Below are positions 22,933 through 42,065 of a stretch of 63,892 nucleotides of DNA, in pieces. The notes under the pieces were generated by a model. That model made no database searches. It had not been told where the DNA came from and saw only the letters and a program-made list of their open reading frames with translations. The DNA lies in assembly GCA_902386135.1 (NCBI GenBank), contig CABMIB010000055.1:1-63892 (forward strand), written 5' to 3'. Source of the DNA: an uncultured archaeon (GTDB lineage: Archaea; Halobacteriota; Methanosarcinia; Methanosarcinales; Methanoperedenaceae). Within the stretch, counting starts at the first letter, position 1; every line of letters begins with the position of its first letter. The translations under genes and the position numbers were made by a program.

Positions 22933-22941
22933 TTCCGATAC

Positions 22942-23559: not shown

Positions 23560-23563
23560 AGTA

Positions 23564-24406
23564 TCACCTCTTCTTTTGATAGATTCGTTCTTTTACATCA
23601 ACAGGATGGAACAGCTCTTCTGCCGGACCGACGAGCGTTTCTGTTTTCCCCATCACGAAGTATCCTCCGTCGTTCAGGGCATTATAGAAATTCAGGTAAA
23701 GCTTTTCCTGCAGAGCCTGCTCGAAATATATCGTAACATTCCTGCAAAAAATGACATCGAACCCGAATAACCTTGGACCGGATATCATATCGTGATACCT
23801 GAACTTTACCAGGTTCCGGACCTCATCGATAACACTGTATGTGTAATCCTCATTCTGGACAAAAAACCGCTCGATCCGCTCCCTGCCTATTTTTTCAAGC
23901 TGCTTTAAATGATATATCCCTTTTTCTGCTTTTTTAAGGGAATCCTCGTCTATATCCGTGCCAAGTATTGAAATATCGTATCTTTTGATCGAAATCCCCA
24001 GGAATTCACGGAGCATTATCGCTATTGAATACGGCTCTTCACCATTGGAGCAGCCTGCGCTCCATACCCTTATCGTTTTATTAATTCCTTTTGATTTGAA
24101 TAGTTCGGGAAGAACATTTTTACTGAACGATTCGTATGTTTCCGGGTTCCTGAACAGTTCAGTGACATTAACCGTCAGTGTCTCTTTTAACCTCTGTGAT
24201 TCCGTCTCATTCGTTAAAAGAACCCCTGCATACTCCTTATAAGATCTTGAATGATTTGCCCGCAGCCTTACGGCAAGCCTTCGCTTAAGATGGGCCTGCT
24301 TATAGTCCTCACAGTTAAAACCGATTTTTCTCTTTATGAGGGTTTTTAATTCTGCGAACTCTTCATCGTCCTCATGCACCGGGAAATTATCTGGGATGGC
24401 TATCAT
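23564..24406 (-). CDS. cheR: Chemotaxis protein methyltransferase CheR
   Basis: A 280-residue enzyme that methylates glutamates of chemoreceptors with S-adenosylmethionine. The N-terminal helical CheR domain (about 10-80) is followed by the methyltransferase fold with VWSAGCSNGEEPYSIAI (SAM loop), ILGTDIDEDSL and VIFCRNVTIYFE. There is no TPR extension. It overlaps cheA by four bases (ATGA). Confidence 0.95.
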   Translation of the reverse strand: MIAIPDNFPVHEDDEEFAELKTLIKRKIGFNCEDYKQAHLKRRLAVRLRANHSRSYKEYAGVLLTNETESQRLKETLTVNVTELFRNPETYESFSKNVLPELFKSKGINKTIRVWSAGCSNGEEPYSIAIMLREFLGISIKRYDISILGTDIDEDSLKKAEKGIYHLKQLEKIGRERIERFFVQNEDYTYSVIDEVRNLVKFRYHDMISGPRLFGFDVIFCRNVTIYFEQALQEKLYLNFYNALNDGGYFVMGKTETLVGPAEELFHPVDVKERIYQKKR

Positions 24407-26400
24407 ATTAATGTCCCTACATCCAGTATCAGTGCAACATTCCCGTCGCCCAGTATGGTCGCACCCGCAAATCCCTTAACGCCTCTGAGAAGGCGGTTAT
24501 CAAGTTTCTTGATTATGACTTCCTGCTGCCCCAGGACATGGTCCACCACTATCCCGACATTGCTGCCCCCGCGCTCAACCACCACAACAATCATATCATC
24601 CGAACCGTTGCTTTTTACACTGAAAATATCATGGAGCCTGATGAGCGGGAGAACCTCACCCATCATCATTATTACTTCTTCGCCTTTGATTGTCTTTATC
24701 ATGTCTTTCTTGATGGCAAGGTCCCTCACCACGTTAGTTATGGGAACAGCATAGACATCTTTTCCGACTTTCACCATCAGAGAATGAATGATCGCCACCG
24801 TCAGGGGCAGTTTGAGCGTAATATCCGTCCCTTCGCCTGCTTTGGATTCAAGTCTTACGGAACCACCAAGTGCCTCTATCTTTGTCTTTACAACATCCAT
24901 ACCGACCCCGCGTCCCGAGACATCCGTTATTTTTTCAGCCGTGCTGAACCCGGGCAGGAACGAGAGATTGAGCACCTCGGTGTCTGTAAGTTTGGCTATG
25001 TCTTCCGCGGACATTACACCTTTAGTTACTGCCGCATCCCTGAACTTTTTGGGGTCCATCCCCTTGCCGTCATCCTGCGCCTCTATAACGACATAATTTT
25101 TCTCACGCCTTGCAGCCAGCTTGACCTTGCCTTTTCTGTTCTTACCCGCTTTCTCCCTTGCTTCCGGGGATTCTATACCGTGGTCAACGCAGTTCCTGAG
25201 AATATGGACCAGCGGGTCTCCTACTTCATCCAGCACAGTACGGTCAAGCTCGATGTCTCCGCCTTCAAGGATAAGTTCGATGTCTTTACCCTCTTTTTTA
25301 GCCAGGTCCCTTACCATCCTGGGGAACCGGTTAAATATCTGGTCAATCGGCACCATCCTTGTTGCCATTATCTCTTCCTGGAGGTCATTTGTCAGGCGGT
25401 TAAGGCTTGCGAGGGTCTCTTCAAGATAATCCAGTTTATGGTCGCTTACGATCTGCATTAATCGTATTTTGTTTATGACCAGTTCCCCGACAAGGTTCAT
25501 CAATGAATCAAGGCGCTCAATGCCGACACGCACGCTCTGGACATTCTTTACAGCCGCCCTGCCGGCATCGCTGCTGCACGCTTTATCCTCTGTTTTCTTT
25601 TTAGCAAGCGATTCGCTGCCTGCATTATCCATGGGTTTCACATCTACACTCAGGACTTCAGATGTGGTTTTTACAGCATCCTCTACCTTTTTTGCGTCTT
25701 CTTTAGTTGAGAACGTGACTGTGAATATCCTGTCGAATTTTTCATCCTCAATATCCTTAAGCGACGGTTTTGTCTCAATGATATCCCCGAGCTCCGAGAG
25801 GTTTCTGAGGGCTACGGCGGCACGTGCGGACTTGAGCACACAGGATTCATGGAGAGTAACTGTCACGTTGAAAATAGCGCATCCTTTTTCATCCGTTTTC
25901 TGGGTTCCGTCCTCTGCTGCATCGGAAACATTTACGGGCACAGTCTCTTCATGCGTTTCCTGTATAACCTCTTCATGTTTCTCCGCAGCAGGCGACTGTT
26001 CCTTTGGAGGAGATCCGGCTACTGCTCCATTAGATAACTGTACCATTTTATTAACAAGGACGGATATATCAAATTGCGAAGAGTTTTCCGGGACCTCTAC
26101 CATTTTTTCAAGAGTGTCCAGGACCTCAAAAAGCATATCGATCGCGGCCGTGTCAAGAACCATTTCGTTCTTGCGCACCCTGTCCATCAAGTTCTCCATA
26201 TCATGGGTAAGCTCCGCGATATTGGAATAACCCATAGTGGCTGACATGCCTTTCAGAGTATGGGCTGCCCTGAACATTACGTTTATCGTTTCACTGTTTT
26301 TCGGATCCTTCTCAAGGCTCAGAAGCGCGTCGTTCATCGACTGTAGATGTTCTGCCGCTTCAACCGCATACATTTCTTTATATTCAGACATGTCGTTCAT
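24403..26400 (-). CDS. cheA: Chemotaxis histidine kinase CheA
   Basis: A 665-residue kinase with all five CheA domains: P1 HPt (1-105) with phospho-His in FRAAHTLKG near residue 47; a variable linker and a P2-like domain (about 175-255); P3 dimerisation (about 280-345); P4 ATPase with ILRNCVDHGIES (N box), DDGKGMD and GRGVGMDVVKTKIE; and P5 CheW-like receptor-coupling domain (about 530-660). It phosphorylates CheY and CheB when receptors signal. ATG 26400 follows AGGGG. It lies 9 bases after cheB. Confidence 0.96.
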   Translation of the reverse strand: MNDMSEYKEMYAVEAAEHLQSMNDALLSLEKDPKNSETINVMFRAAHTLKGMSATMGYSNIAELTHDMENLMDRVRKNEMVLDTAAIDMLFEVLDTLEKMVEVPENSSQFDISVLVNKMVQLSNGAVAGSPPKEQSPAAEKHEEVIQETHEETVPVNVSDAAEDGTQKTDEKGCAIFNVTVTLHESCVLKSARAAVALRNLSELGDIIETKPSLKDIEDEKFDRIFTVTFSTKEDAKKVEDAVKTTSEVLSVDVKPMDNAGSESLAKKKTEDKACSSDAGRAAVKNVQSVRVGIERLDSLMNLVGELVINKIRLMQIVSDHKLDYLEETLASLNRLTNDLQEEIMATRMVPIDQIFNRFPRMVRDLAKKEGKDIELILEGGDIELDRTVLDEVGDPLVHILRNCVDHGIESPEAREKAGKNRKGKVKLAARREKNYVVIEAQDDGKGMDPKKFRDAAVTKGVMSAEDIAKLTDTEVLNLSFLPGFSTAEKITDVSGRGVGMDVVKTKIEALGGSVRLESKAGEGTDITLKLPLTVAIIHSLMVKVGKDVYAVPITNVVRDLAIKKDMIKTIKGEEVIMMMGEVLPLIRLHDIFSVKSNGSDDMIVVVVERGGSNVGIVVDHVLGQQEVIIKKLDNRLLRGVKGFAGATILGDGNVALILDVGTLI

Positions 26401-26409
26401 AAATTTCCC

Positions 26410-27516
26410 CTATGCAATCTGCATAATACTTTCCGCTATTTTGTTTATGGGTAAAATGAAATCGGCCAGTTTTCTTTCTATTACCGATTTGGGCATGCCG
26501 TAGACCACACAGGTGGACTCATCCTCGGCTATTACCCTGCCGCCCGCAGATTTGAGGTTCCTGACACCGTCAGAGCCATCAGAACCCATACCTGTGAGTA
26601 TCACGCCAACCGCTTTCTGCCCGTAGATAGGCACAACTGAATTAAGAAGAACATCAACCGAGGGTCGTACACCCTGTACCCTTTCACCCTTTGTCAGAGC
26701 GATAACTTCTCTCACCTCACCGTTCTTTTTCTGCTGTTTTACTATCATATGAAAATCCCCGGGCGCAATAAGGACTTTCCCGGGCTCGATGATATCCCCG
26801 TCCACTGCCTCTCTTACTTCAACCCTGGACTGGGCATTCAGGCGCTCAGCCAGGGATTTCGTAAATCCCGGCGGCATGTGCTGTACCACAAGGACTGCCG
26901 CATCAAGCGTTGGTGAAAGTAAAGGTATTACCTGCTGCAATGCCCTTGGTCCCCCTGTAGAAGAGCCGATTACGACAATTTTCTGGGATTTTGTTTTTTT
27001 GCGAGGTTCTACTTTTTGCTTTTTATCATCTTCAATTGAACGGCGGAAGAAATCGAACAGCATCTCCTTGCCTACTTCTTCTTTTTTCTTCTGTTCTTCG
27101 ATAAAACCAAGTTTTTGGACACCGACAGTGGCAGCAGTCTTTACTTTCCTGATAAGTTCATCTTTTATATTGATCATATCCCGGCTTATCTCCCCTGAGG
27201 GTTTGAGCATGAAATCAACCGCCCCGTACTGGAAGGCCGTGATAGTGACATCAGTCGAATTTGCGGCCGAAAGCATGATGACCGGTGTCGGACACTCGCT
27301 CATGATATAACCGAGCGCCTGTATCCCGTCAAGGACAGGCATTTCTATGTCCATGGTCACGACATCTGGCTTTAACCTGGCTGTCTTTTCTATCGCATCC
27401 AGTCCGTTTTTCGCCCTTCCTATCACTTCTATATCAGGACTTGATGCCAGAATGTCGCTGGTGATTTTTCGCATAAAAGCGGAGTCATCAACAACAAGCA
27501 CTTTTATTCGGGACAT
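26410..27516 (-). CDS. cheB: Protein-glutamate methylesterase CheB
   Basis: A 368-residue protein. An N-terminal receiver (1-120) with the phosphoacceptor in VTMDIEMPVLDG is joined by a charged linker to the methylesterase domain, whose catalytic Ser, His and Asp are in IGSSTGGPRAL, VQHMPPGFT and LTGMGSDGSDG. It removes receptor methyl groups and thus resets sensitivity, opposing CheR. The linker (about 140-175) is unusually Lys/Glu rich. It lies 11 bases after cheY. Confidence 0.95.
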   Translation of the reverse strand: MSRIKVLVVDDSAFMRKITSDILASSPDIEVIGRAKNGLDAIEKTARLKPDVVTMDIEMPVLDGIQALGYIMSECPTPVIMLSAANSTDVTITAFQYGAVDFMLKPSGEISRDMINIKDELIRKVKTAATVGVQKLGFIEEQKKKEEVGKEMLFDFFRRSIEDDKKQKVEPRKKTKSQKIVVIGSSTGGPRALQQVIPLLSPTLDAAVLVVQHMPPGFTKSLAERLNAQSRVEVREAVDGDIIEPGKVLIAPGDFHMIVKQQKKNGEVREVIALTKGERVQGVRPSVDVLLNSVVPIYGQKAVGVILTGMGSDGSDGVRNLKSAGGRVIAEDESTCVVYGMPKSVIERKLADFILPINKIAESIMQIA

Positions 27517-27527
27517 CTAAAGACCAA

Positions 27528-27884
27528 TTACATATTCTTTGAGACTACTTCCATTACTTTTGTAGCATCAAACGGCTTGACAATAAAATCCCTGGCACCG
27601 ATTTTAATGGCGTCATTCACTACGGTCTGCTGGCCTATCGAGCTGCACATCACCACTTTCGCATCTTTATCGAACGAAATGATCTGTTTCAGGCACTCGA
27701 TCCCATCGATATTGGGCATTACTATGTCCAGCAACACAAGGTTCGGTTTATGCTCCTTGTACTTGGATACCCCGTCCGACCCGTCAACAGCCTCTATTAA
27801 ATCGTTCCCTGTCGGCGCAAGAATCTTTTTGAGCATCATTCGCATGAACGCTGCATCATCGACTATTAATATTTTACCTGGCAT
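27528..27884 (-). CDS. cheY: Chemotaxis response regulator CheY
   Basis: A 118-residue single receiver domain: acidic pair in IVDDAAFMR, phosphoacceptor Asp in VLLDIVMPNIDG, switch residue in MCSSIGQQ and Lys in FIVKPFD. In archaea phospho-CheY acts on the archaellar motor through CheF and the ArlCDE switch rather than FliM. It is the first gene of the che operon; GGGAGG lies 5 bases upstream and a doubled TCACA element with TATA box precedes it at 27958-27987. Confidence 0.93.
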   Translation of the reverse strand: MPGKILIVDDAAFMRMMLKKILAPTGNDLIEAVDGSDGVSKYKEHKPNLVLLDIVMPNIDGIECLKQIISFDKDAKVVMCSSIGQQTVVNDAIKIGARDFIVKPFDATKVMEVVSKNM

Positions 27885-27996: not shown

Positions 27997-29652
27997 TCAG
28001 GCCACCCCTAACAGCGGACCCATGGCCCTGACAGTGAGTTCTGCAGTTATAGCAGAGACCCATACAAGCCCCACAAAGTGGGTATAAGTGTTAAAATGAT
28101 GACCGCCGTCGACTATCCTGATAAGCATTGCCGAAAGCAGGGAATGGCCGACCATCATAGACATCACCATGGTGGACATCATGCCGACATCGCTGTGGGC
28201 AATGCTGCCTACCGATATACCGATATCAACATCTGGAACTGTAATGCCTGAAAAAAGCTTACCGAGCATTGAAATTATGGAAATTGAAAGGAACATGGTG
28301 GCGCCTATGCCTGCTGTCAGCCCATAAAGGACGCCTGTCAGGCTTGTGGCGCTGCTGTATCTTAATTTCCGCATCGAAAGTATATACATGAAATTATGGT
28401 TAATGATTTCGCCAATGACCCCCGGCTTTCCGCCCACATCGGTCCCTTCAACGAACATCGTCGCAAACCGCTCTATCAGGTTGCTTCCCGCGCCTGCTGC
28501 AAAATGTTCCCATGCTCCCCTTTTATTGACACGGGACTTCAGTCGTTTGTACAGGTTTGTTATATTGACAGAGAGAGGACCAAAATCGTGTGCACGCAGC
28601 TCTTTTAGGGATTCCACGATAAGGCCGCTCCTTGAGCCTGCCGCGCCGCCCAGTGAGCGTATAAAAGCACCGAAGTTATCGTCATATCGTTTGATTTTAT
28701 TTTCTTCCTGCCTTGCGATCAGTCCTGTGATTAACAGCGGTGATAAAGAGACCGCAAACATAATGGTTATGGGAAGATCGGCAAATGTGATCAGCAGGCC
28801 TGTGACTAATAGGCATAGTGCCAGGGATATGGGCATTGACCATTTGATCCGCCGGTCGGATATAGTCTCGATCTCAAGCGTATGCCATATCTGGTCGGTG
28901 GGAACCTTTGACTTCGCATAGATCAACAGGCAAATTTCAGAGCCAAGGAATATAGCTATGGCGCCTGCAAGCAGCATGTTGGCATCCGTACCCGTGATTA
29001 GAGGCATTATAACGGCGAAAGAGACCAACATGATAAGGGACATACCCATAGAAAGGAATATTTCTTTTATCATCTCGATGCCGTTTAGCGAATCTTTATA
29101 CATGGTCATGAAATCGTTCATTACTACCGTTTGCTCGGATACCACGAACTTTTCGAAATCCTCGCCTGACTGCACCGCATGGGCCATCCTGTCGAGAAAA
29201 TCAGAGAACAATATTGAAGGCGTGCGCTTTCCAATGAAGCGGCAGGCTGCAGGGAAATTCAAATGCCAGTAGCGGATAAGTGCATATATCCTTCCAGTTT
29301 CCTTGGCTAAATAGCCGTATGCTTCGTTCTTCGACAGCAGAAGAAGGATATCTATTCTTGTCATCTGTGATGTGGCAAGGACGCCCATATGTGTGATATA
29401 ATAGTGGATAGTGTTGTCAATCTCTTTTTTTTTAGTCTCCATGCTCATGATCGGATATAAGAAAACCACTGTCATCAGGAAAAATGGGACAAGTATGACC
29501 CCGAGCAGCGTGTATCCCTGCATGACGGATGGAGCCAGCAGTATCATAATAAAAGGGAAAACGACCGCCAGTGCAAATACCGGGAGTACGAACTTCCTGA
29601 GATAAACCATTTTTGGTATACCGAGGCAGTGAAATACGACCTTTGAGTCCAT
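27997..29652 (-). CDS. arlJ: Archaellum membrane platform protein ArlJ
   Basis: A 551-residue polytopic membrane protein of the FlaJ/T2SF family. It has groups of hydrophobic segments near 20-60, 205-255, 275-310 and 430-545, separated by two cytoplasmic helical domains (about 75-195 and 325-425) that dock on ArlI. It is the membrane base for archaellum assembly and rotation. Its ATG at 29652 overlaps the arlI stop by one base. Last gene of the arl operon; the next promoter (che operon) starts right after it. Confidence 0.93.
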   Translation of the reverse strand: MDSKVVFHCLGIPKMVYLRKFVLPVFALAVVFPFIMILLAPSVMQGYTLLGVILVPFFLMTVVFLYPIMSMETKKKEIDNTIHYYITHMGVLATSQMTRIDILLLLSKNEAYGYLAKETGRIYALIRYWHLNFPAACRFIGKRTPSILFSDFLDRMAHAVQSGEDFEKFVVSEQTVVMNDFMTMYKDSLNGIEMIKEIFLSMGMSLIMLVSFAVIMPLITGTDANMLLAGAIAIFLGSEICLLIYAKSKVPTDQIWHTLEIETISDRRIKWSMPISLALCLLVTGLLITFADLPITIMFAVSLSPLLITGLIARQEENKIKRYDDNFGAFIRSLGGAAGSRSGLIVESLKELRAHDFGPLSVNITNLYKRLKSRVNKRGAWEHFAAGAGSNLIERFATMFVEGTDVGGKPGVIGEIINHNFMYILSMRKLRYSSATSLTGVLYGLTAGIGATMFLSISIISMLGKLFSGITVPDVDIGISVGSIAHSDVGMMSTMVMSMMVGHSLLSAMLIRIVDGGHHFNTYTHFVGLVWVSAITAELTVRAMGPLLGVA

Positions 29653-31283
29653 TATACCTCGAACGGTATACCATCAAGACCTTTGGCCTGGTAATTCCAG
29701 ATGATATCCCGTACCTTATAATAATCAAGGATGTTCTCTTCCACCAGCCTGTTAAGGATCTTCGCGCGAAGCGATAGTTCATCATATACCATGCGCTTAT
29801 CATCGTATCCAAGCCTGATCGCCACTTTGTCAAGGATAAAGCTATTATTCATGCCCCTGAAACGATGCTTATCAAGGGTAAAATCCCACTCAAAGACAGC
29901 GCGCGTTATTACGCCTCCGGCCTCCTCAAGGTACCCTTCTATCTCTTCTACAGAGGTGCATCGCCTCAGGAATTTCCCTTTCCTGTATATTGCCTGGAGG
30001 ATCAGGGCGGCGTTCAGGTTATCAGCGAACGTGGGAGGGATGTTGATAGGCTCACCCGTCAGGCGCTGGATAAGCTTCTTGACAGAAGATGCATGGAATG
30101 TAGCAAGCACTGCATGCCCGGTCTGCATCGCCTGGAAAGCTACCGCACCCTCTTCACCCCTGATCTCACCTACTATGATGTAGTTTGGTCTTGACCGCAG
30201 TGCGACCTTAAGCAGGGTAAATGTATCCACCTGGGACTCTTTCGGACCCTCTTCACGTGTGATTAACTGCTGCCAGGCAGCCTGTGGAGGGGACACTTCC
30301 GCAGTATTCTCTACTGAGTACATCTTGGCTTTGCGGCTTATGAATGGCAGCGCAGCGTTAAGCATTGTCGTCTTACCGCTTGCAGTTTCGCCGCTAAAGA
30401 AGATGCTCATCTGGTTCTCAAGCAGCAGCCACAGGTATGAGGCTAAATTCGCATCTATACTGCCCCATTTGATAAGCTGGGAAATACTGGCAGGAATTTC
30501 CATGAACTTTCTCAATGTGAAACTTGAGCCTTTTCTGCTTATATCGGTACTGTAAATGGCATTGATTCGAGTACCATCAGGCAATGTGCCGTCCATAATA
30601 GGGCGGGCATCGCTGACAGGTCTTCCTATCCTCTCACCTATCGTGTGGATCCAGTGGCTCAGGTTATCCTGGGTCCCGAATGTTATATTGGTATGGAGCA
30701 TACCCAGGATCTTGTGTACGACATATACGCCACTTACGCCGATACTGTGGATATCTTCAAGATACGGGTCCCTTATGACCGGTTCGATAGCTCCCTGTCC
30801 GCTAATATTCCTTTCAACATAATAAGAAATCTTATCGTATTCTTCAGATGTTATATCAACAAGCTTTTCACCGAGCAATTTATCCAGGAAGTTTGTTGAA
30901 AGTATCTTCCCCTCGATATGCACCGAGTCATTTAAAAGTTTCATCATGAGCTTTTTAAGCTGTTCTTCAGTCTCAGGTACTATTTCATCCGCCGCTTTTT
31001 CCAGTATAGAGTCCATTATCTGGCCATACTTTTTCTGCTCCCCCTCCGTCATCATCGGCTCGATTGCTATATACTGGATTTCCCTGGTTGTTTTATCACC
31101 TTTAAGATAAATGAATATCGGGTCGCCTACCGGGTATATGATAGACGGTACGGGGATATCTACAATATCCTTGGATAGTTTCGGGAAGAAGTCCGGGACT
31201 ACCCCGGTCTCTTTTTTGCAGTTCTCAACAAATTCCTTTAGATGCGGGTTTCTTGCAATGGCTTCTTCAAACTTGTCATCCAG
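29652..31283 (-). CDS. arlI: Archaellum motor ATPase ArlI (apparent CTG start)
   Basis: A type IV-filament ATPase with Walker A FSGETASGKTTML, Asp box VENTAE, Walker B NYIIVGEIRGEEG and His box MQTGHAVLATFHA. It drives both assembly and rotation with ArlJ and ArlH. From the first in-frame ATG (31055) the protein is only 467 residues. The homologous N-terminal domain continues in frame upstream (DKFEEAIARNPHLKEFVEN, VPSIIYPVGDPIFIYL) to CTG 31283, giving 543 residues, the normal size. Between there and the upstream TGA no ATG, GTG or TTG is in frame. GGAGAG lies 11 bases before CTG. A nearby ATG (31294) would fit only with a frameshift. Confidence 0.88.
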   Translation of the reverse strand: MDDKFEEAIARNPHLKEFVENCKKETGVVPDFFPKLSKDIVDIPVPSIIYPVGDPIFIYLKGDKTTREIQYIAIEPMMTEGEQKKYGQIMDSILEKAADEIVPETEEQLKKLMMKLLNDSVHIEGKILSTNFLDKLLGEKLVDITSEEYDKISYYVERNISGQGAIEPVIRDPYLEDIHSIGVSGVYVVHKILGMLHTNITFGTQDNLSHWIHTIGERIGRPVSDARPIMDGTLPDGTRINAIYSTDISRKGSSFTLRKFMEIPASISQLIKWGSIDANLASYLWLLLENQMSIFFSGETASGKTTMLNAALPFISRKAKMYSVENTAEVSPPQAAWQQLITREEGPKESQVDTFTLLKVALRSRPNYIIVGEIRGEEGAVAFQAMQTGHAVLATFHASSVKKLIQRLTGEPINIPPTFADNLNAALILQAIYRKGKFLRRCTSVEEIEGYLEEAGGVITRAVFEWDFTLDKHRFRGMNNSFILDKVAIRLGYDDKRMVYDELSLRAKILNRLVEENILDYYKVRDIIWNYQAKGLDGIPFEV

Positions 31284-31298
31284 AACTCATCACTCTCC

Positions 31299-31991
31299 TC
31301 ATGAAACTCCGGATATGTCTATCATTACGCCGGCCTTAGCCTCGACCTTGAAACCGAACATGCTCCCGACCTGGAACTCGGGACGGGCGTATTTATTTAT
31401 TACAACCGTCCTTCGGATTTCCGTACCTATCTGGCGGACTTTCAGGGTAAGGAACACCTCGGCCGCGTCCTTGAACTCGGTGCTTATGCCTGCGGGCAGC
31501 TCAGTGCTGTCCATAGTAAGGATAATCGTTTTCTGAACTCCTGTTAATTTCTTGAAAAACGAGATAAGCTGCAGGCTCTTTTCCGCTTCGGTGCTATAAC
31601 GTATGAGCGCGGAGAGCGTGTCTATTATAATTAAATCTTTTTCAAAAAGACCTGCTGCGCCCATAAGTCTCTGGATAAAATCTATCCTTGGCTTGGACTC
31701 CTTAAGCAGGGGATAAGCGGGGATATAAAGAAGTTCTCCTTTTAATAGTTTGATACCTATGGGATCATCCAGGGAATTCATCTGGCGGATGAAATTTTTC
31801 GTGGTCAACTGCGTTGAAACGTAGGTTACCGTGTTCTTATTATCCAGGAGACCGAAAGCGAACCTCTGGCAAAGGGCACTCTTCCCGCTGCCGTTAGGAC
31901 CATCGATCACGACCAGCGCACCTTTGGGGAAGCCTCCTCCGAGCATCTGGTTCATCTCATCCCTGTCCAGCGCAAATGAATATACTACCAT
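31299..31991 (-). CDS. arlH: Archaellum ATP-binding regulator ArlH
   Basis: A 230-residue RecA/KaiC-like protein with Walker A IDGPNGSGKSALC and Walker B DLIIIDTLSALI, but without the catalytic features of the motor ATPase. ArlH binds ATP, forms a ring and regulates ArlI and ArlJ in the motor complex. ArlG and ArlI genes flank it directly. A second KaiC-like gene (61650-62405) has the motility promoter element. Confidence 0.92.
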   Translation of the reverse strand: MVVYSFALDRDEMNQMLGGGFPKGALVVIDGPNGSGKSALCQRFAFGLLDNKNTVTYVSTQLTTKNFIRQMNSLDDPIGIKLLKGELLYIPAYPLLKESKPRIDFIQRLMGAAGLFEKDLIIIDTLSALIRYSTEAEKSLQLISFFKKLTGVQKTIILTMDSTELPAGISTEFKDAAEVFLTLKVRQIGTEIRRTVVINKYARPEFQVGSMFGFKVEAKAGVMIDISGVS

Positions 31992-31994
31992 AGT

Positions 31995-32441
31995 TTATAT
32001 CCTGAATTCGAATTCATCTTCAACCCCGTTATCTGTCATCACTCTTATTTTATGGCTGCCCGGTGCAATTATCACAGTGGCATTTATTTTCAGAACATCG
32101 CCCGTTTGCCACATCGTATCCCCTTCTATTATGGTTTTGCTGAGACTCCCGCTCGGCACGAAAGTCCCGTCGATAAGAACTGTTACATGAGCGGCAGAGA
32201 GGTCTTCTTGCCCTGTGTTTTTTACGTAGAATGTATAAATCCCGCCGGAATACGGAATTGCAGCCGGATCATTTATCACTGTGATATCGGTCTTTAACTG
32301 TTCAGATAGTGTTTTGCTGCCTGCGGTCGCTGCATTTGAAATTGACTGGACGTTCATGAACAGTGCCCCCGCCACCCCCAGGGAAATAACGACAGATACG
32401 ATAAAGAAAATAATATGAGTTGCAGACGTACCCGCTCCCAT
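31995..32441 (-). CDS. arlG: Archaellum stator protein ArlG
   Basis: A 148-residue protein with one N-terminal membrane helix (IIFFIVSVVISLGVAGALF) and an extracytoplasmic beta-sandwich domain. The start MGAGTSATHIIFF is typical of FlaG/ArlG. ArlG forms a filament with ArlF that anchors the motor to the S-layer. It lies between arlF and arlH. Confidence 0.88.
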   Translation of the reverse strand: MGAGTSATHIIFFIVSVVISLGVAGALFMNVQSISNAATAGSKTLSEQLKTDITVINDPAAIPYSGGIYTFYVKNTGQEDLSAAHVTVLIDGTFVPSGSLSKTIIEGDTMWQTGDVLKINATVIIAPGSHKIRVMTDNGVEDEFEFRI

Positions 32442-32450
32442 GAGAACCTC

Positions 32451-32861
32451 CTATGTGACCGCGTAGTCGGCGATACCGTTGGACGTTATTATTTTTGTCC
32501 TTCCGCTGGTTATCCCGTTAAGGGTCACATCGATGAAGTCCCTGGGCGTCCAGACGCCCTCTTGCGATACGCTAAAAGATGATGCTGATAACAGCATCCC
32601 GTTATGAATAACGTTCAACTTGCTTGCGTTGAGCGTCACCGAGCCGTTATTAGATACTGTGATTTTCAAATTGCCTCCGTCATTCTGGGTATTCATTATT
32701 ACGATTTTCGTGTTCAGTTTATCAAACTGCATATCATTAAGATTTTTTTTGGCATCCAGTACCCTGTGGTATGACAGGTTTGCAAAAGGGTAAAATATCG
32801 CTGCCATGTACATTAAAGAAGCGGCGAGAATAACAACGGAAGCAGAGGTTGAGAATCCCAT
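32451..32861 (-). CDS. arlF: Archaellum stator protein ArlF
   Basis: A 136-residue protein with an N-terminal membrane segment (MGFSTSASVVILAASLMYMAA) and a beta-rich extracytoplasmic domain with NLKITVSNNGSVTL. This matches FlaF/ArlF, which binds the S-layer and forms the stator with ArlG. It lies 14 bases after the third archaellin gene and 9 before arlG. Confidence 0.88.
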   Translation of the reverse strand: MGFSTSASVVILAASLMYMAAIFYPFANLSYHRVLDAKKNLNDMQFDKLNTKIVIMNTQNDGGNLKITVSNNGSVTLNASKLNVIHNGMLLSASSFSVSQEGVWTPRDFIDVTLNGITSGRTKIITSNGIADYAVT

Positions 32862-32875
32862 GCATACCTCCGCTG

Positions 32876-33478
32876 TTACGGATATAACTGAACGTACCTG
32901 TAAACACCGTAAGAGTTGGGTGTGGTTATCTCAAGGTTTACAGCCTGCCCGGTCTCCTGGTTCAGGGACAGCCAGAAAGTTTTCCTGGGTTGCAGGCTGA
33001 TAGTACCTAAACCCGTAGCACTGTTGTTTATCTGGACTTCAATTAGGGATCCAGCGGTGAGCACGGGTGTACTTGCATTAAATGCCAGTTCTTCATCCCG
33101 CACAGCTATGGCTGAATAGTTAGTGCCATAATTAAGATCATAGCGATTGGAGCTATCCATCACGGTTACGATAACCTGCCTTAAGTCTATAGACGTGGTG
33201 CCTACATCCGGTTTAATTCTGATTAACAGGGTATCTATAGTATTATTAAGTCCTGCTCCCCTGTCTCCCATTACCTTTTCAACGATCATGTTGGATGATA
33301 TCTGATTTGTTGCGTCCTTGCTGGTCTTCGTGGCTTTCTGCTGGAGCGCTCCTGTTGTGTATATTAAAACTGCCGCAGCAACTGCAGCTACTAGTACCAT
33401 TGATATGAATATTATAAGTGTGCCTACACCTACATCGCCACTGTCATTGTGGTTGAGTCATTTCCTGTTTGCTTTCAT
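32876..33478 (-). pseudogene. arlB: Third archaellin gene with in-frame TGA in the signal peptide
   Basis: ATG 33478 begins MKANRK, then TGA (33460-33458), then LNHNDSGDVGVGTLIIFISMVLVAA in the same frame, and an intact archaellin to 32876. Without the TGA the product would be 200 residues, the same as the other two archaellins (201), and the class III signal peptide and cleavage site before VGVG would be normal. The only ATG after the TGA (33400) is inside the membrane helix and would give no working prepilin. It is thus either inactive, recoded, or an assembly error. The mature part is diverged from ArlB1 and ArlB2 but shows no other damage. Confidence 0.75.
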
Positions 33479-33494
33479 ATTGTATCATCCTTCT

Positions 33495-33533
33495 TAAAAA
33501 GAAAGAAAAAAATTCCCCTTTTTTCAGGGGAAT
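33495..33533 (-). terminator. Terminator overlapping the archaellin 1 stop
   Basis: On the minus strand ATTCCCC (33533-33527) pairs with GGGGAAT (33518-33512), with the stop codon TGA in the loop, followed by a run of T. It should limit read-through from the archaellin into arlF-J. Confidence 0.65.
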
Positions 33534-34129
33534 AGCTGTACCTGGGTACTGTCACCAAAGGTTGCAGGAGCCACCACATCCTTAATCACCATTGTTCCTG
33601 ATTCAGGGATTATCTGAATAGTGCCTTTCTTCCTTGCGTATAAATCCTGGCTCATCGCATCCAGGTTCAATGTAACGATTGCAAGGTCTCCTGATTGCAG
33701 GACATAGTTGGGATTTCCGGAGCCGGTTCTCACTTCTGTGTAGTTGAACAGCGACGCAGTAGCTGCCTGAGTAACATCGGTTTGCAGGTTCAATACTTTT
33801 GTGGAACTTTCATTTATGTATTTTATAACTACTTTGCTGAAGTCAATGGATGAACCACCTGCAGCAAGTTCCAATGTGATATTTAATTCCTTTGTGTAGA
33901 CATTGTTAGTATCTGTTGTACCCACAACTGAAGAGATTTTCATGTTAGAAGCCACTTCACTTGTAGCCTCTTTACCCGTCTGCTGTGCTTTCTGTTGCAG
34001 TACACCTGACGTCTGAATCAACACTGCTGCCGCCACCGCTGCGACAAGTATCATCGCAATGAAGACGATCAGCGTGCCGATACCGACATCAGCTTGGTTA
34101 TCTTTCAATATACTGATTCTGGTTTTCAT
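33524..34129 (-). CDS. arlB: Archaellin 1
   Basis: A 201-residue archaellin. The class III signal peptide [14 protein letters not shown] is followed by the cleavage region [24 protein letters not shown], the hydrophobic filament-core helix, and then a beta-rich outer domain ending in QLFP. PibD/FlaK peptidase would cut before VGIG. GGAGG lies 5 bases before ATG 34129. It has its own motility promoter (34218-34247) and a terminator at its stop. Near-identical to archaellin 2 at the N-terminus ([20 protein letters not shown]), implying duplication. Confidence 0.93.
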
Positions 34130-34217
34130 AACGCCTCCATTAAATTTTTTGTCTTCGAAACTCAGGTGGCGGTATTACGCCATTCCCTGCTTCTAATCAT
34201 TATGAGCATAATACTTG

Positions 34218-34247
34218 GATATAAATAGAGTTGTGAAAAAAGTGTGA
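34218..34247 (-). promoter_or_regulatory. Motility promoter element upstream of archaellin 1
   Basis: On the minus strand: TCACAC, TTTTT, TCACAA, CTCTA, TTTATATC. It lies 89 bp before the start. The rest of the 350-bp gap 34130-34479 holds the leader of this gene and, at its other end, the archaellin 2 terminator; I see no gene there. Confidence 0.8.
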
Positions 34248-34464
34248 AAAATGCGGAGAACCAGATGTCCGGCGATTAAGGATAATTTTTAATTCATGTT
34301 TGATATATAAATAAATATGTAAAAAGTAAGCTCTTGATACTATAAAGCGATGGTCAATGGCAACATGTTGCAGCTTCCTTTGTAAACCCGGGTAGCCTCG
34401 ATGATTATATTTTCCTCTGGCTGGTAGTAATAAAAACCAGCGCATCAGGGGACCTCTTTTATAG

Positions 34465-34489
34465 AAAATTCCCCTGTTTTCAGGGGAAT
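34465..34489 (-). terminator. Terminator overlapping the archaellin 2 stop
   Basis: ATTCCCCTG (minus strand 34489-34481) pairs with CAGGGGAAT (34476-34468) around a 4-base loop, followed by TTTTC. The stop TGA (34482-34480) begins at the top of the stem, the same design as at archaellin 1. Confidence 0.65.
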
Positions 34490-35085
34490 AACTGCACAAT
34501 GTCATTGTCAGAAAAGGTCGGGGGCGCTACTACATCTTTTATTACCATCGTTCCTGTTTCAGGTATGATCTGAAGAATGCCTTTCTTCCTTGGATATAAC
34601 TGCTGGTTCATTTGGCTCAAGTCCATAGTAACGACTGCCAGGTCCGCTGACTGCAGAACAAAATTGGGATTGCCGATACCTACCCTTTCTTCAGAGTAGT
34701 TAAACAGTTTATCAGTAGCTGCCCCAGTAACGTCTGTTTGCAGGTTCAATGTCGTTGAGGTCGTTTCGTTTATATATTTGATAACAACCTTCGAAAAGTC
34801 TATGGCCGTACCTCCTGCTGCCAGTTCCATGGTGATATTAAGCCGCTGGATATAAGTATGAGTACCATCCGTTTGTCCCATTAATGACGTGACCTTAAGG
34901 TTGGAAGCAACTTCAGCGGTTGCTTCTTTACCCGTCTGCTGTGCTTTCTGTTGCAGTACACCTGACGTCTGAATCAACACCGCTGCCGCCACTGCTGCGA
35001 CAAGTATCATCGCAATGAAAATGATCAGCGTGCCGATACCGACATCAGCCTGATTATCTTTCAATATACTGATTCTGGTTTTCAT
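34480..35085 (-). CDS. arlB: Archaellin 2
   Basis: A 201-residue archaellin starting [20 protein letters not shown], with the class III signal peptide, the filament-core helix and a beta-rich outer domain ending QLFP. It is the closest paralogue of archaellin 1; the differences lie mainly in residues 60-180, the exposed part of the filament. I chose ATG 35085 to match archaellin 1, not the longer frame from 35112. It has its own motility promoter element at 35161-35190 and a terminator at its stop. It may be a major or minor filament subunit. Confidence 0.93.
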   Translation of the reverse strand: MKTRISILKDNQADVGIGTLIIFIAMILVAAVAAAVLIQTSGVLQQKAQQTGKEATAEVASNLKVTSLMGQTDGTHTYIQRLNITMELAAGGTAIDFSKVVIKYINETTSTTLNLQTDVTGAATDKLFNYSEERVGIGNPNFVLQSADLAVVTMDLSQMNQQLYPRKKGILQIIPETGTMVIKDVVAPPTFSDNDIVQLFP

Positions 35086-35160
35086 AATGCCTTCACTAAA
35101 TTTTAGTTTCAAACCCTGCGGCAGTAAACGCCTTCTCTTAATCTATGAGAACAATACCTG

Positions 35161-36001: not shown

Positions 36002-36703
36002 TTATTGTGCTTTTATAAATATCATATCGTTCTGCAGGGGTAATCTATTTTCCTGTATTTTATCTTCCGGTATCTTATCTTCCGCATGCTCGCAGAAGTG
36101 TGAATATATCGATTGCATAGCCTCTTCATGGCTTGCTGCGGCCGATAGCAGTATATGTATCGATGAAGGATAGACTGTCATCCTGTTCACTTTCTGGGGT
36201 GTTTTATTATTTGCCAGGAACATCACTATCAGGGCTGCATTGAAACTGTTGATCTCAGAATCCATACCTGTTATCTGGAGTGAGAGCTGGCTCTCAATGC
36301 TGTTGATCGATACCGTGACAGGCCAGTTGAGGATCGATAGCTCCTCGTTGATGATCTTATTCAGGCTGCTGACGTCATATACGTTAATATCACTGTGCAT
36401 CGAGAAGAGCTGGTTCGCTTCGCTCAATGGGGGAAGAGGGTTTTTTCTCTTGCTCAGCATCCACTTGAACATCGTCAACGGGATCGTTACGCCGAATATG
36501 CGGTTCCTTATCTGTTCGCTGAAGTGGTTTTTTTCCTTCAAAAGATCCTTTGCCGTCTCCAGGCTTCCCATGTTCTCAGTTACGAAACCTGTGAAATCTA
36601 TGATGTCTCTCATCGCCGCTGACAGATTCCCCTGATGTTTTTTCAGCAACGGTTCAAGCAGTTTCAAATGTGCATCGCTTATTGATACATTTTTTCTCAG
36701 CAT
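36002..36703 (-). CDS. Large ribbon-helix-helix-like regulator, paralogue A
   Basis: A 233-residue protein of no family I can name. The first 40 residues fit a ribbon-helix-helix domain: strand RKNVSIS, helix A DAHLKLLEPLLKKHQ, turn GN, helix B LSAAMRDIIDF. The rest is alpha/beta with repeated VSINSIESQLSLQI-like strands and could be a sensor domain. The N-terminus is clearly shared with paralogue B (36906-37952). A TATA-like ATATATAAATTT at about 36825-36838 and an inverted repeat ATCATTA-gg-TTAATGAT near 36761-36777 precede it. DNA binding and a role in archaellum control are inferred from the fold and location. Confidence 0.6.
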   Translation of the reverse strand: MLRKNVSISDAHLKLLEPLLKKHQGNLSAAMRDIIDFTGFVTENMGSLETAKDLLKEKNHFSEQIRNRIFGVTIPLTMFKWMLSKRKNPLPPLSEANQLFSMHSDINVYDVSSLNKIINEELSILNWPVTVSINSIESQLSLQITGMDSEINSFNAALIVMFLANNKTPQKVNRMTVYPSSIHILLSAAASHEEAMQSIYSHFCEHAEDKIPEDKIQENRLPLQNDMIFIKAQ

Positions 36704-36905: not shown

Positions 36906-37952
36906 CTAAATATTTTTCGTAACCTGTAAAACCAGCATATCTTCATCATGCGATACCACGGGACTCATTACTATCAAGTTCTCCGAGCAGGCGGACCTAT
37001 ATTTTGCACCATTGGCATTGAGCACATTCAACAGTATTTTCTCAATGGCATTTATCGCGCGCGCATCCGTGTAACCGTGGTATATCTTCAGTGTAGTCTC
37101 ATCCACGTCGATCCTCTCTACTATGCCCATGTATTCATACACGGATTTCATGGTTGAAATAAGAGTCCCAAGCGGGATATCCCTGATAGGGACTTTATGT
37201 ATCGCCTCTATCGGCGCTGTAAGATAACTTGGCGCCTCTTTCCCCATTATTAATTCGTTATAGTAATTTTTCGGTATGGTAACCATATTGTAATTGGTCT
37301 GCTTGTACAGGTTGACAATGCAGTTCCAGAATTCCTCTTTTTTTGATATCTCGGAGGTAATATCTTCTATTTGCCCGAAATGCTCAACAAGGGACTGCCT
37401 CGAAAGATTCGCATTCACCTGTTTTCTGAAATTAATAGTAATTGCACTGGACATCCTTTTTAATGACGCTATCTCTTGCTTTTTCTGCGCGACAAGGAAT
37501 GATGATATCATCCCGCCGAGAAATTCCATTTTAGATATGCTATTCCCCACAAGGGTTACTTTTAGATGTGACGGGCTAATGGCATCGTCATAATCATATA
37601 TTCTTATCTTTGTCTGCCACCCCGTACCGGCTGTCATCTCATCCAGGTATTTTTCAAGTTCCGGCAGCTGTACCGTCTTTGCAGGATCAAGAATGCTATT
37701 CAGGATATCCTGCTCAATAAGCCTGCCGCGCGCCTGTTTGATAAGCCAGTCCAGGACAGTTTCAGTGAGATTGCTGTCTGTTTTTAACCCGCCTATAAGC
37801 CTGTTTGCTGCATCAGGGTCCTTTGTTATCGTATCTATAAGGTCTATTATCTCGCGCATAGCCGCGCTGAAGTTCCCCTTATGCTTTAATACAAGCGGCT
37901 CCAGCTTCTTAATATGCCCTGTTTCCAATGATATATTTTTCCTGATAGACAT
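36906..37952 (-). CDS. Large ribbon-helix-helix-like regulator, paralogue B
   Basis: A 348-residue paralogue of the 36002-36703 product. The N-terminal domain RKNISLETGHIKKLEPLVLKHKGNFSAAMREIIDLID again fits strand-helix-helix, with GNFSAAMR at the turn. A middle region (about 95-190) matches the alpha/beta part of paralogue A, and the C-terminal part (250-345, with LKIYHGYTDARAINAIEKIL) is extra. It carries the motility promoter element itself (38008-38037), so it is either a target or a self-regulated activator of the set. Confidence 0.6.
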   Translation of the reverse strand: MSIRKNISLETGHIKKLEPLVLKHKGNFSAAMREIIDLIDTITKDPDAANRLIGGLKTDSNLTETVLDWLIKQARGRLIEQDILNSILDPAKTVQLPELEKYLDEMTAGTGWQTKIRIYDYDDAISPSHLKVTLVGNSISKMEFLGGMISSFLVAQKKQEIASLKRMSSAITINFRKQVNANLSRQSLVEHFGQIEDITSEISKKEEFWNCIVNLYKQTNYNMVTIPKNYYNELIMGKEAPSYLTAPIEAIHKVPIRDIPLGTLISTMKSVYEYMGIVERIDVDETTLKIYHGYTDARAINAIEKILLNVLNANGAKYRSACSENLIVMSPVVSHDEDMLVLQVTKNI

Positions 37953-38101: not shown

Positions 38102-38290
38102 ATGGTTTCAAAAAGTGTTACTGTTTTGAGTCTATTGCTCCCAATAGCTGTAGTAATCGGCACGAGCATTGCTATATTTTCCTATAAATATTTTTCATTG
38201 ACCTTGTTATTCCTGTATTCAGGCGGAGGGTTACTGATCTGTTTGTATGTACTGATAATAAGGTCTGAGCATCATAAATCCATGAGATAA
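38102..38290 (+). CDS. Small two-helix membrane protein
   Basis: A possible 62-residue protein with two hydrophobic segments (about 8-28 and 32-52) and a basic end (RSEHHKSMR). It diverges from RHH-like paralogue B. A/T-rich promoter-like sequence lies directly before it, and no ribosome-binding site is seen, so a leaderless mRNA would be needed. No family is recognised and it could be spurious. Confidence 0.4.
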   Translation: MVSKSVTVLSLLLPIAVVIGTSIAIFSYKYFSLTLLFLYSGGGLLICLYVLIIRSEHHKSMR

Positions 38291-38370: not shown

Positions 38371-38952
38371 TCACGTGCCCTGGCCGGGAATTGAAAGCTT
38401 GAGCTTGGAGCCGCAGAAAGGACACATCATCCAGTTCGGGTCTATGTTCTTCTTGCAGAACGGGCAGATCTTGGCAACCTCTACTTTCTTTATGAGCAAA
38501 TTACCGCAGTTCGAGCAATTGTTCCATTTCGGATCGATAGGGCTCTGACATTTCTCGCATGGCTTATAGGTGGCAGCCCATTTTTGCTCTTTCAAACCAA
38601 CCCCGCATTTGGTACAGAACTTGTATGAGACCACAAGCCGCTCACCGCATGAAGTACATACAGGTACATCCTGCCTGAGCGTGGGATTTAGTTTCTTTTT
38701 AAGGTTCTCGATGCAAACGCCTGCTTCGCGTTTGACCATCTCCTCGGGATCTTTCTCAGCCAGGAATTCGATTATTCTTACAAGGCTCTTGCTGAATTCC
38801 GGTATCTCTATATCCATCTTTGCAAAATCAACTTTATCCGTGTTTATTGAGGAGGTTATATATTTCAGGGTCATGAAGCGCGTTGCGACTATCTTGCTTT
38901 CCAGCTTCTCAAGCATATGCCGCCGTTCTTCATCTGATAATATCTTACCCAT
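38371..38952 (-). CDS. Zinc-ribbon protein of a motility-regulated operon
   Basis: A 193-residue protein. The first 95 residues are helical, and the rest holds four CxxC knuckle pairs forming two double zinc ribbons: CTSCGERL with CTKCGVGL, CEKCQSPI with CSNCGNLL, and CPFCKKNI with CPFCGSKL. Such double zinc ribbons often bind proteins or nucleic acid. It is the third gene of an operon with two small membrane proteins (start 39734), and the operon begins with the motility promoter element. Its function is not known to me. Confidence 0.7.
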   Translation of the reverse strand: MGKILSDEERRHMLEKLESKIVATRFMTLKYITSSINTDKVDFAKMDIEIPEFSKSLVRIIEFLAEKDPEEMVKREAGVCIENLKKKLNPTLRQDVPVCTSCGERLVVSYKFCTKCGVGLKEQKWAATYKPCEKCQSPIDPKWNNCSNCGNLLIKKVEVAKICPFCKKNIDPNWMMCPFCGSKLKLSIPGQGT

Positions 38953-38953
38953 A

Positions 38954-39274
38954 CTATTCTGTTATCTCCTCTATCGATATGGATAGGAGTATAGAGAATA
39001 CGAAATATAATATCAGTATTATGGACAGCAACGCCTCGAAAACAGGCGTAAAGCTTTCAAAGATGACCGCCCCCATAGTACCTACGGCCCTTACGATACC
39101 CAGCAGGATGAACAGACTTATCATACTGATGAAATATTCCCACATCAGGTCCATCGTCTTTAAGCCTTTTAATTCCCTGGATATGCCCGCCAGCAGGTTA
39201 AATGACAGAACACTGCATATTATTACAATAATAGAGGCTACAGTGTTCAATATTACAAAGAATGCGTCATTCAT
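38954..39274 (-). CDS. Small membrane protein of a motility-regulated operon
   Basis: A 106-residue protein with three hydrophobic segments at about 6-27, 47-68 and 78-100 and a charged loop (SRELKGLKTMDLMWEY). No family is recognised. It overlaps the 155-residue membrane protein gene by 8 bases and is followed one base later by the zinc-ribbon gene, so the three are surely co-translated. Confidence 0.65.
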   Translation of the reverse strand: MNDAFFVILNTVASIIVIICSVLSFNLLAGISRELKGLKTMDLMWEYFISMISLFILLGIVRAVGTMGAVIFESFTPVFEALLSIILILYFVFSILLSISIEEITE

Positions 39275-39734
39275 CTGATTCCTCCCTGCTGAACACGGTC
39301 CATGGCTCCTCTCTCATTGCTTTTATGATCTTCTTCAAGCCGAAGAACAGTATCAAGAATACAATGACCTCTATCACGGGGTCAAGAACGTTCAGGATAA
39401 TGAGAGCATGATCGATAACTTCCGGCGATTTTAAGGCATTCTCGAACTTGAGCGCGTTCAATAAAACCCCGAAAGTCATAATAATGTTCCAGAATATCAT
39501 CATCATCATGGAAATAGACAGGTATTTCCATGTCTCCGTACCTTTTTCTGCTCTCTGCCAGAGACCGGCTGCCAGATATGTGGAGCCGCACATGCCGAGC
39601 AGGAAGGATATCAACCGTACTACCGTACCGCTTGTATCGATCCTGTCTTCAGTTATGGCCTGGGCTGCGCCAGCCATTGGCAGGATTAACAGAAAGAAGA
39701 ACAACAATGAGACCATTTTGGTTTTTGTGTGCAT
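39267..39734 (-). CDS. Signal-peptide-bearing membrane protein of a motility-regulated operon
   Basis: A 155-residue protein with an N-terminal signal peptide or first helix (about 7-26), then hydrophobic segments at about 38-58, 72-93 and 110-135, ending with acidic residues. No family is recognised. It is the first gene of the three-gene operon and has the motility promoter element 42 bp upstream. I infer that it forms a membrane complex with the 106-residue protein and the zinc-ribbon protein, perhaps linked to the motor or to signal transfer. Confidence 0.65.
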   Translation of the reverse strand: MHTKTKMVSLLFFFLLILPMAGAAQAITEDRIDTSGTVVRLISFLLGMCGSTYLAAGLWQRAEKGTETWKYLSISMMMMIFWNIIMTFGVLLNALKFENALKSPEVIDHALIILNVLDPVIEVIVFLILFFGLKKIIKAMREEPWTVFSREESDE

Positions 39735-39775: not shown

Positions 39776-39805
39776 AATATAAATAAATTTGTGAAAAACG
39801 TGTGA
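39776..39805 (-). promoter_or_regulatory. Motility promoter element of the membrane/zinc-ribbon operon
   Basis: On the minus strand: TCACAC, GTTTT, TCACAA, ATTTA, TTTATATT. It lies 42 bp before the start at 39734. Confidence 0.75.
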
Positions 39806-39874: not shown

Positions 39875-40099
39875 TTATACAATTCCTTTTACTGCTTTAT
39901 ACCATTCACATGTCATGCACGTGCCTCGTTTCTGGGCAAAAGTCCCCTGGACCTTGCCTCCGCAGAATGTCCCTGCTACCATCCAGCAGTCTCTGCCGTG
40001 ATCAGGAGACGCCGGACATATGCCCATTTCGACTACTTTGGTTCCGCCTTTTTCTCTTCCGCATTTCTTAAGTTCCCAGCAATTTTTTGGTGTTGCCAT
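39875..40099 (-). CDS. Stand-alone two-CW domain protein
   Basis: A 74-residue protein with eight or so Cys/Trp landmarks: [38 protein letters not shown], and TCMTCEWYK. It is almost the same as the last 65 residues of the chemoreceptor encoded just upstream (40167-42065), and related to the tails of two others. The paired C-W motifs suggest a metal or cofactor site. As a free domain it may be a soluble partner, competitor or sensor for those receptors. It has its own motility promoter element. Confidence 0.75.
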   Translation of the reverse strand: MATPKNCWELKKCGREKGGTKVVEMGICPASPDHGRDCWMVAGTFCGGKVQGTFAQKRGTCMTCEWYKAVKGIV

Positions 40100-40129: not shown

Positions 40130-40159
40130 TATTTAAATAAAAGTGTGAAAAAAGTGTGA
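40130..40159 (-). promoter_or_regulatory. Motility promoter element of the two-CW gene
   Basis: On the minus strand: TCACAC, TTTTT, TCACAC, TTTTA, TTTAAATA. It fills the gap between the receptor stop at 40167 and the two-CW start at 40099. Confidence 0.75.
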
Positions 40160-40166
40160 AAAAGAC

Positions 40167-42065
40167 TTATTCCCGGACTATCTTATACCAGTTACACGTC
40201 AGGCATGTACTCTTCTTCTGGGCTACCGTTCCCTGGACCTTGCCCCCGCAGAACGTTCCTGCCAGGTTCCAGCAATCTCTGCCGTCATCAGGATAAGCAG
40301 GACATATTCCAAGTTCGTCTGCTTTGTTCCCGCCATTTTCTCTTCCGCACTTCATAAATTCCCAGCAGTTCTTAAGAAGCGTTGTTTTCGTATCAGCAGT
40401 ATTGTTTTCGTTTTGGGGGTTATTTCCTTTCTCCGGGATATTTTGCCTGATAACTGGTTTCACTTCATCTGAATCGGATTGCTTTGTAGCCACTGCTGTT
40501 GATTTTGCCATATTGAACCTGGCTACTTCTACCCGTAGATCATCTGATAACGTAGCCAGTTCCTGAGCCGCTTTTACAAGCTGTGCCATTGACGATGCCT
40601 GTTCTTCAGCCGCCGCCGAGGTCTGCTGGGTGGCGGAAGCGGATTCTTCGCTAATTGCAGATACATCCTCAATAGAAGCCGATATCTCTTCAATAGAGAC
40701 CGACTGCTCCTCTGCTGCTGCAGCGATTTCATGCATCATACTAGCAACATTTCCAGTAGCTTTGACGATCCGATCAATTGCAGAAACCGTATTCTCAATC
40801 GTCCCTGCTCCCTCGTTGACCGCTTTCGTGCCTCTGTCCATGCTCTCAACAGCTTTCTTGGTTCCCTGCTGGATTTCCTTTATGAGTTCTGTAATATTAC
40901 CTGCAGCGGTCCTTGACCCTTCAGCAAGTTTTCTTACCTCATCAGCAACTACGGCAAAGCCCCTGCCGTGCTCGCCAGCGCGAGCAGCCTCAATGGCTGC
41001 ATTCAGCGCAAGGAGATTTGTCTGGTCAGCGATACTGGTAATTACGCCGATAATTTCGCCTATTTTTTGAGATTTGGTATCAAGTTCCTTTATTACAACC
41101 GACGAGTTGTCTACAGTTGCATGGATTTCTTCCATCTTCTGTGCAACCCCGCTGGACATTTTTCCTACTTCCTGCGCGGTCTTATCTGTATCCTTTGCAC
41201 CTTCAGCCGCTTTCTGGGAATTGGCTGCGACCTGCTGCACGCTCTCGGACATCTCTTTCATAGCCCTGCTGATTTCCACTATTTTCGAAGCCTGCTCAGT
41301 CACGCCCTCGGAGATGCTCTGAGTACTGGTAGAAATCTGCTCAGTCGAGGCTTTAATCTCATCGCTTGATACCGCAAGTCCCTGTGCCACACTGGTAATC
41401 TTGTCAGAAGCACGAAGCATGCTGCCTATGGGTTTGATTATTGATCTGGAACTGTACAGGCTGAGAACTATTCCGAAGAGCGCTGCGATCGCACCGGTTA
41501 CTATAACCATTCTTGAAGATGATTCCCTGGAAGCATTTGCTGCCGCTTCTGCCTGTTTTATTTCATCTTCGCTATACATGGCGATCTTATCAAGCACATC
41601 CATCTGTACCTTAACCGTGGAATCGAACTTATCCATGGCGCGGTTGCCTGCATCCGTATCACCTTTCACGAACATGCCCGCCATTTCCATGCCGGAAGAT
41701 TCAAAATCTTTATGAGTGACCTGCAATTCATCCACGAGCTTCTTTTGCTCATCGGGCAGAAGAGAGCGCAGTTTTCCAGCCTGGTCCTTGAATCTGGCAC
41801 TTAATTCTGCTATTTTTTCCTGACCTGTACTGCTTTTTGTCAGTGCATAACCCGTAATAGCGTCCTGCTGTTCTACCGCCAGGGAATACAAAGCCATGCT
41901 GCTGTATCTTATATCCTCAGCATCATGCACTTTCATAAGATGTTCGTTAGCAGTTCCTATACCGCTGCAGCCCGTATATACGATCAGCGCCATTAAAAGG
42001 ATTAACAGCCCAAATGAACCCATCAGTTTCTTGTCCAGGGACATATTTGTTATAATCGGAATCAA
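40167..42065 (-). CDS. Chemoreceptor A with C-terminal two-CW domain
   Basis: A 632-residue methyl-accepting chemotaxis protein. Membrane helices near 14-35 and 188-208 enclose a four-helix-bundle-like sensor (about 36-187). A short HAMP-like link leads to the signalling domain, whose hairpin tip has [22 protein letters not shown] Gln/Asn/Ser-rich part follows, and the two-CW domain closes the protein (about 565-632: [35 protein letters not shown]). The TTG start at 42065 aligns with the N-termini of the other receptors; the ATG at 42044 is the alternative. It has the motility promoter element. Confidence 0.92.

Follow-up and report, generated by a model that had tools for sequence, protein, structure and literature searches.

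CheF is regarded as the route by which archaeal chemotaxis acts on the motor, linking CheY-P to the ArlCDE switch. In Halobacterium salinarum, CheY, CheD, CheC2, and FlaCE/FlaD are bound by a group of proteins that includes a HEAT_PBS protein and CheF, and losing the HEAT_PBS protein or one CheF stops switching (Schlesner 2009, PMC2666748). The same study left open the matter of HEAT-type taxis proteins outside the haloarchaea and the workings of che regions that have no CheF (PMC2666748). How ArlCDE, which has no transmembrane domain, is anchored has also been left open (PMC8978795). Our literature search found no paper combining Methanoperedens, the archaellum, and chemotaxis.

A profile search for CheF (PF04283) gave no match in any of 34 Methanoperedenaceae genomes and was positive in three control genomes. 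The family is thus without detected CheF, though most members carry ArlD/E and many carry che genes. The window studied here, a stretch of 63,892 nucleotides from an uncultured archaeon of this family, is a motility island with cheD-C-R-A-B-Y, arlJ-I-H, ArlF/G-type proteins, archaellins, response regulators, several MCPs and CheWs, and an ArlCDE-like fusion (Table 1). A whole family therefore has che and arl genes with CheF undetected, and a conserved, uncharacterised trio of genes, TM155, TM106, and ZR193, follows its che-bearing archaellum.

Table 1. Features of the window discussed in the text (positions are those of the whole stretch)
Feature	Positions	Strand	Remarks
cheD-cheC-cheR-cheA-cheB-cheY	22459-27884	-	Trio genomes carry the set beside arlJ
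arlJ-I-H-G/F-... archaellins (archaellum cluster)	27997-35112	-	
p233	36002-36703	-	Shorter; N-terminus in common with p348
p348	36906-37952	-	Conserved neighbour with its own element; N-terminus reminiscent of ribbon-helix-helix
o62	38102-38290	+	62 aa, hydrophobic, apparently two TM helices; convergent with ZR193
ZR193	38371-38952	-	193 aa; starts 1 bp beyond TM106
TM106	38954-39274	-	106 aa; overlaps TM155 by 8 bp
TM155	39267-39734	-	155 aa
TCACACGTTTTTCACA element	39790-39805	-	71 bp ahead of TM155 start; a TATA-like box then follows
Cys74	39875-40099	-	Free-standing two-CW protein (NF045718); own element at 40144-40159
MCP632	40167-42065	-	Chemoreceptor with two-CW domain at its C-terminus
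ArlCDE-like fusion	62593-63678	+	FlaC_arch + Arch_fla_DE; presumed motor switch; far end of window

The initial annotation had picked out three coupled ORFs, the first two of 155 and 106 residues with an 8-bp overlap, and all of this is borne out. Gene order is constant in 22 orthologous loci, with an overlap of 8 or 1 bp and a gap of 0 to 2 bp, and dN/dS values of 0.035 to 0.153 indicate strong purifying selection; on both grounds these ORFs are real genes. The trio is a tight operon in Ca. Methanoperedens. Homologues of all three proteins occur in the same 21 of the 186 genomes of the order, TM155 and TM106 in Methanoperedenaceae only, and TM106 was not found outside this family among 393 genomes sampled from the phylum. 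As a set, the three genes are new. The libraries searched contain no family to which either membrane protein could be assigned, Pfam and NCBIfam giving nothing above chance for them, while ZR193 matched generic zinc ribbons only; this confirms the earlier view that none of the three belongs to a known arl or che family.

TM155 and TM106 are predicted to be small polytopic membrane proteins, as first described. TM155 appears to begin with a signal peptide or first helix (the signal peptide is our own reading of the sequence), followed by three predicted transmembrane helices, an Asp-Pro that is invariant in the alignment where the last helix begins, and a conserved cytoplasmic tail (PWTVFS). 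TM106 has three predicted transmembrane helices and a conserved charged loop, ISRELKGLKTMDxMW. The two are alike in their three-helix layout, with Pro where the last helix starts. Homology between them was considered and is not established, profile comparison giving a probability of 6% and an E value of 0.006 over 35 columns. Sequence searches of the PDB with TM106, TM155, and the N-terminal domain of ZR193 returned nothing convincing. A similar layout to that of TM106 is also seen in a hydrophobic protein of 118 to 120 aa with a TCACA element upstream, present in two genomes (G000:C15, L106:160-516; G046:C12, L097:149-511).

The third protein had been described as having a helical N-terminus and double zinc ribbons; the ribbons stand, and their number is three, because ZR193 has six CxxC pairs whose 12 Cys are all invariant in an alignment of 24 homologues (C99/102/113/116, C132/135/146/149, and C163/166/177/180). 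These pairs, with a Pfam DZR match at 52.7 bits against a cut-off of 27.3, place ZR193 among the double/triple zinc ribbon proteins (PF12773, PF13248). The N-terminal domain, at about residues 1 to 90, was modeled by AF2 with pLDDT values of 85 to 98 over most of its length and is predicted to be HEAT/ARM-like. Foldseek returned many HEAT/ARM matches to it at a probability near 1 and an rmsd of about 2 to 3.6 A, the best structural neighbors being CAND1, APC, CLASP TOG, and archaeal TON_1937, with E values of only 0.03 and weaker.

ZR193 is more widespread than TM106, having relatives beyond the Methanoperedenaceae. One, in Argoarchaeum (L083), lies just upstream of archaellins. Both genomes of family f34 also have one, at the end of an arl cluster in G374 and on a 5-kb contig in G365, and a further relative, in G207, has no arl genes nearby. 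In the arl clusters of other families that contain such relatives (L081, L083), no che match was seen nearby, and an older role of ZR193, independent of che, is therefore possible. In both f34 genomes a conserved protein of about 170 aa, with no convincing family match, is encoded directly upstream of the ZR193 relative (L081:9426-9941, L080:4162-4671).

Set against described systems, the closest counterpart of ZR193 is OE2401F, the HEAT_PBS protein of Halobacterium salinarum, a short helical-repeat protein tied to che and arl genes and proposed as an adaptor between Che proteins and FlaCE/FlaD (PMC2666748). ZR193 differs in having three zinc ribbons, two membrane partner genes, and no HEAT family among its Pfam matches. 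The job that we propose for the trio, linking CheY-P to ArlCDE, is that of CheF (PF04283/DUF439), but CheF contains two PH-like domains plus a C-terminal domain that binds CheY (PMC9126983), whereas the trio shows neither and none of its proteins matches PF04283. ArlX and ArlCDE are likewise accessory motor or switch parts outside the ArlHIJ core, and ArlX is membrane-bound; no sequence relation to them was detected, and the ArlCDE fusion is present as a separate gene. Like ArnA/ArnB and ArnR of Sulfolobus, the trio combines zinc-finger and membrane proteins linked to archaella, but no FHA, von Willebrand, or HTH domain was recognised in it, and ZR193, having no FHA domain beside its zinc ribbons, is not of the ArnA type. 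The trio proteins also stand apart from the two-CW proteins (NF045718), a group that includes Cys74 and the tail of MCP632. In the window the two-CW domain occurs both free-standing and fused to a chemoreceptor, in adjoining genes.

The TCACA promoter claimed for the operon proved to be part of a larger pattern. The window contains 13 copies of the motif TCACA-N6-TCACA, where Markov-1 shuffles predict 0.08, and the whole 3.24-Mb genome contains 27, compared with 2 for the reversed control; the spacer between paired TCACA motifs is almost only 6. All but one of the 13 sit 60 to 169 bp ahead of taxis or motility genes, and the genes that bear them encode CheY, archaellins, p348, TM155, Cys74, MCPs, a response regulator, and a KaiC-like protein. 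In G046, where the trio and arl are on separate contigs, one element precedes the trio and most precede MCPs, cheY, archaellins, p348, Cys74, response regulators, and kinases. Most loci have an element directly ahead of TM155, also where the trio is not linked to arl. Two exceptions are G041, where the trio starts 22 bp after an MCP and lacks an element of its own, and G066, where an MCP gene and a two-CW gene precede it with no element between. Genomes with the trio average 10.1 elements (212 in 21 genomes) versus 1.2 in those without it (16 in 13 genomes). This sharp element probably delimits a motility and taxis regulon in an environmentally important methane oxidiser, and the trio would belong to that regulon by the element upstream of it. 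Since its three genes are always found together and carry a control signal common to swimming and chemotaxis genes, the trio is probably a taxis-linked accessory module.

Not every archaellum of the family is accompanied by the trio. Measured against the window protein, ArlJ falls into two types, one of 63 to 100% identity and a divergent one of 51 to 55%. Of the 20 genomes with the first type, 19 carry the trio; of the 10 with the second, one does (Fisher p = 7e-6, kinship ignored). In a tree built from a pair of type IV pilus genes, the two arl types are intermingled, and the presence of the trio changes along with them; with two well-supported independent contrasts and an underpowered sign test, this co-change is suggestive, not conclusive. 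In every first-type trio genome examined, arlJ has cheY-B-A-R-C-D next to it, in full or as far as the contig extends, and G066, the one trio genome with divergent ArlJ, has cheD beside arlJ. Ten genomes of the family with full-length ArlJ are without the trio (G048, G049, G051, G054-G057, G062-G064). One of them, G054, is an exception, a 93%-complete metagenome-assembled genome (MAG) with che and the first arl type. For the other nine, all with divergent ArlJ, no che genes were seen near arl on the arl-bearing contigs searched, some of them short or partly read, and che genes elsewhere in these genomes are possible. The divergent loci of these nine often have two ArlI-like genes in tandem, and several divergent loci adjoin the same DHS/OMPdc genes as the che-bearing type.

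These patterns divide the role first suggested for the trio. The link to motility stands, in that the trio belongs with motility and taxis genes, and it is not common in non-motile archaea without arl genes: TM106 was detected in no family but the Methanoperedenaceae, and 20 of the 21 trio genomes have full-length ArlJ, the exception being an 84%-complete MAG. The trio is not present wherever an archaellum is, however, and a role in the motor core was rejected on account of the genomes with divergent arl genes and no trio. Because it follows the che-bearing arl type and not archaella generally, a core function in anchoring the motor is unlikely; the trio more likely connects taxis with the motor or the receptors.

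How such a link might work is a matter on which we offer a tentative proposal, the one we favor most while holding it to be possible at less than even chances: the trio would be an accessory module of the chemotaxis-controlled archaellum of the Methanoperedenaceae, with ZR193 as a HEAT-type adaptor between Che proteins and ArlCDE that is tethered by TM155 and TM106. The two membrane proteins would form a small platform, and cytosolic ZR193, with its HEAT-like domain and triple zinc ribbon, would dock on it and bridge the Che proteins and the switch, doing the job split in haloarchaea between CheF and the HEAT_PBS protein. The proposal draws on the operon structure, the co-inheritance of the genes, their common TCACA element, and the association with che-bearing arl, and such an adaptor would fit two gaps, since CheF was not found and ArlCDE has no membrane domain. 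ArlCDE orthologues adjoin the trio or lie within about 2 kb of it in G066, G071, and G072 and 5 to 6 kb away in G041 and G043. The HEAT/ARM resemblance of the ZR193 N-terminal domain and the ZR193 relatives in arl clusters of Argoarchaeum and G374 also speak for the proposal. The failure of Pfam to find HEAT repeats in ZR193, the Foldseek E value of 0.03, the absence of the trio from G054, the lack of che matches near the ZR193 relatives in arl clusters of other families, and the small number of independent phylogenetic contrasts all count against the adaptor. The stricter version, in which a HEAT/zinc-ribbon adaptor on a two-protein membrane anchor carries the Che signal to ArlCDE independently of CheF, we regard as unlikely; if true, it would explain how the signal could get to the motor in archaea whose che systems have no CheF. 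Named genes are now available for the questions raised by Schlesner et al. about CheF-less che regions and HEAT-type taxis proteins.

The trio might instead act on the receptor side, working with chemoreceptors and the two-CW protein, for example by anchoring, assembling, or tuning MCP arrays or by adding a membrane-potential or redox input. In 13 of 22 loci the first gene upstream on the same strand encodes a two-CW protein or an MCP, and the Cys74 type is the same-strand neighbor of TM155 in 11; several of these upstream neighbors are the free-standing two-CW protein and not MCP632. The loci of G041 and G066, in which the trio comes after an MCP gene, and in G066 a two-CW gene too, fit the same explanation, as do the many TCACA elements that precede MCPs. 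Several loci (L023, L033, L035-L037, and L043) have neither an MCP nor a two-CW gene directly upstream, however, the neighbors of the trio in genus g2 are a KaiC-like gene and ArlCDE, and the relatives of ZR193 elsewhere accompany arl, not MCPs. We consider a receptor-side role somewhat unlikely.

Regulation of archaellum expression is an improbable alternative, in which TM155 and TM106 would keep ZR193, as a zinc-ribbon regulator, at the membrane or set it free from there. It has precedents in Sulfolobus, in the zinc-finger protein ArnA and membrane-bound ArnR (PMC4307647), and relatives of ZR193 occur near archaellin genes or an HTH-like gene. ZR193 also lies near the candidate regulators p348 and p233, both of which could read the TCACA element; the ribbon-helix-helix reading of p348 rests on its sequence pattern, as its fold was predicted at low confidence and its PDB matches are meaningless. 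Against such control, Pfam recognised no FHA, HTH, or other DNA-binding domain in ZR193 besides the zinc ribbons, and the trio is not needed for the TCACA element, which exists in trio-less G054. It is also rather improbable that the trio serves some other membrane task, such as surface sensing, pole positioning, or redox or metal handling, and is merely coexpressed with motility. No functional domain identifies it, and in many genomes it lies away from arl and che; yet it is closely tied to one arl/che type and is found inside the motility island in several lineages, including genus g2.

Convergent with ZR193 in the window is o62, whose homologues (36 to 59% identity) are encoded immediately 3' of arlJ where the arl cluster is of the divergent type (L147, L148, L150, L152). 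From this position o62 looks like a small archaellum-linked protein that had gone unrecognised.
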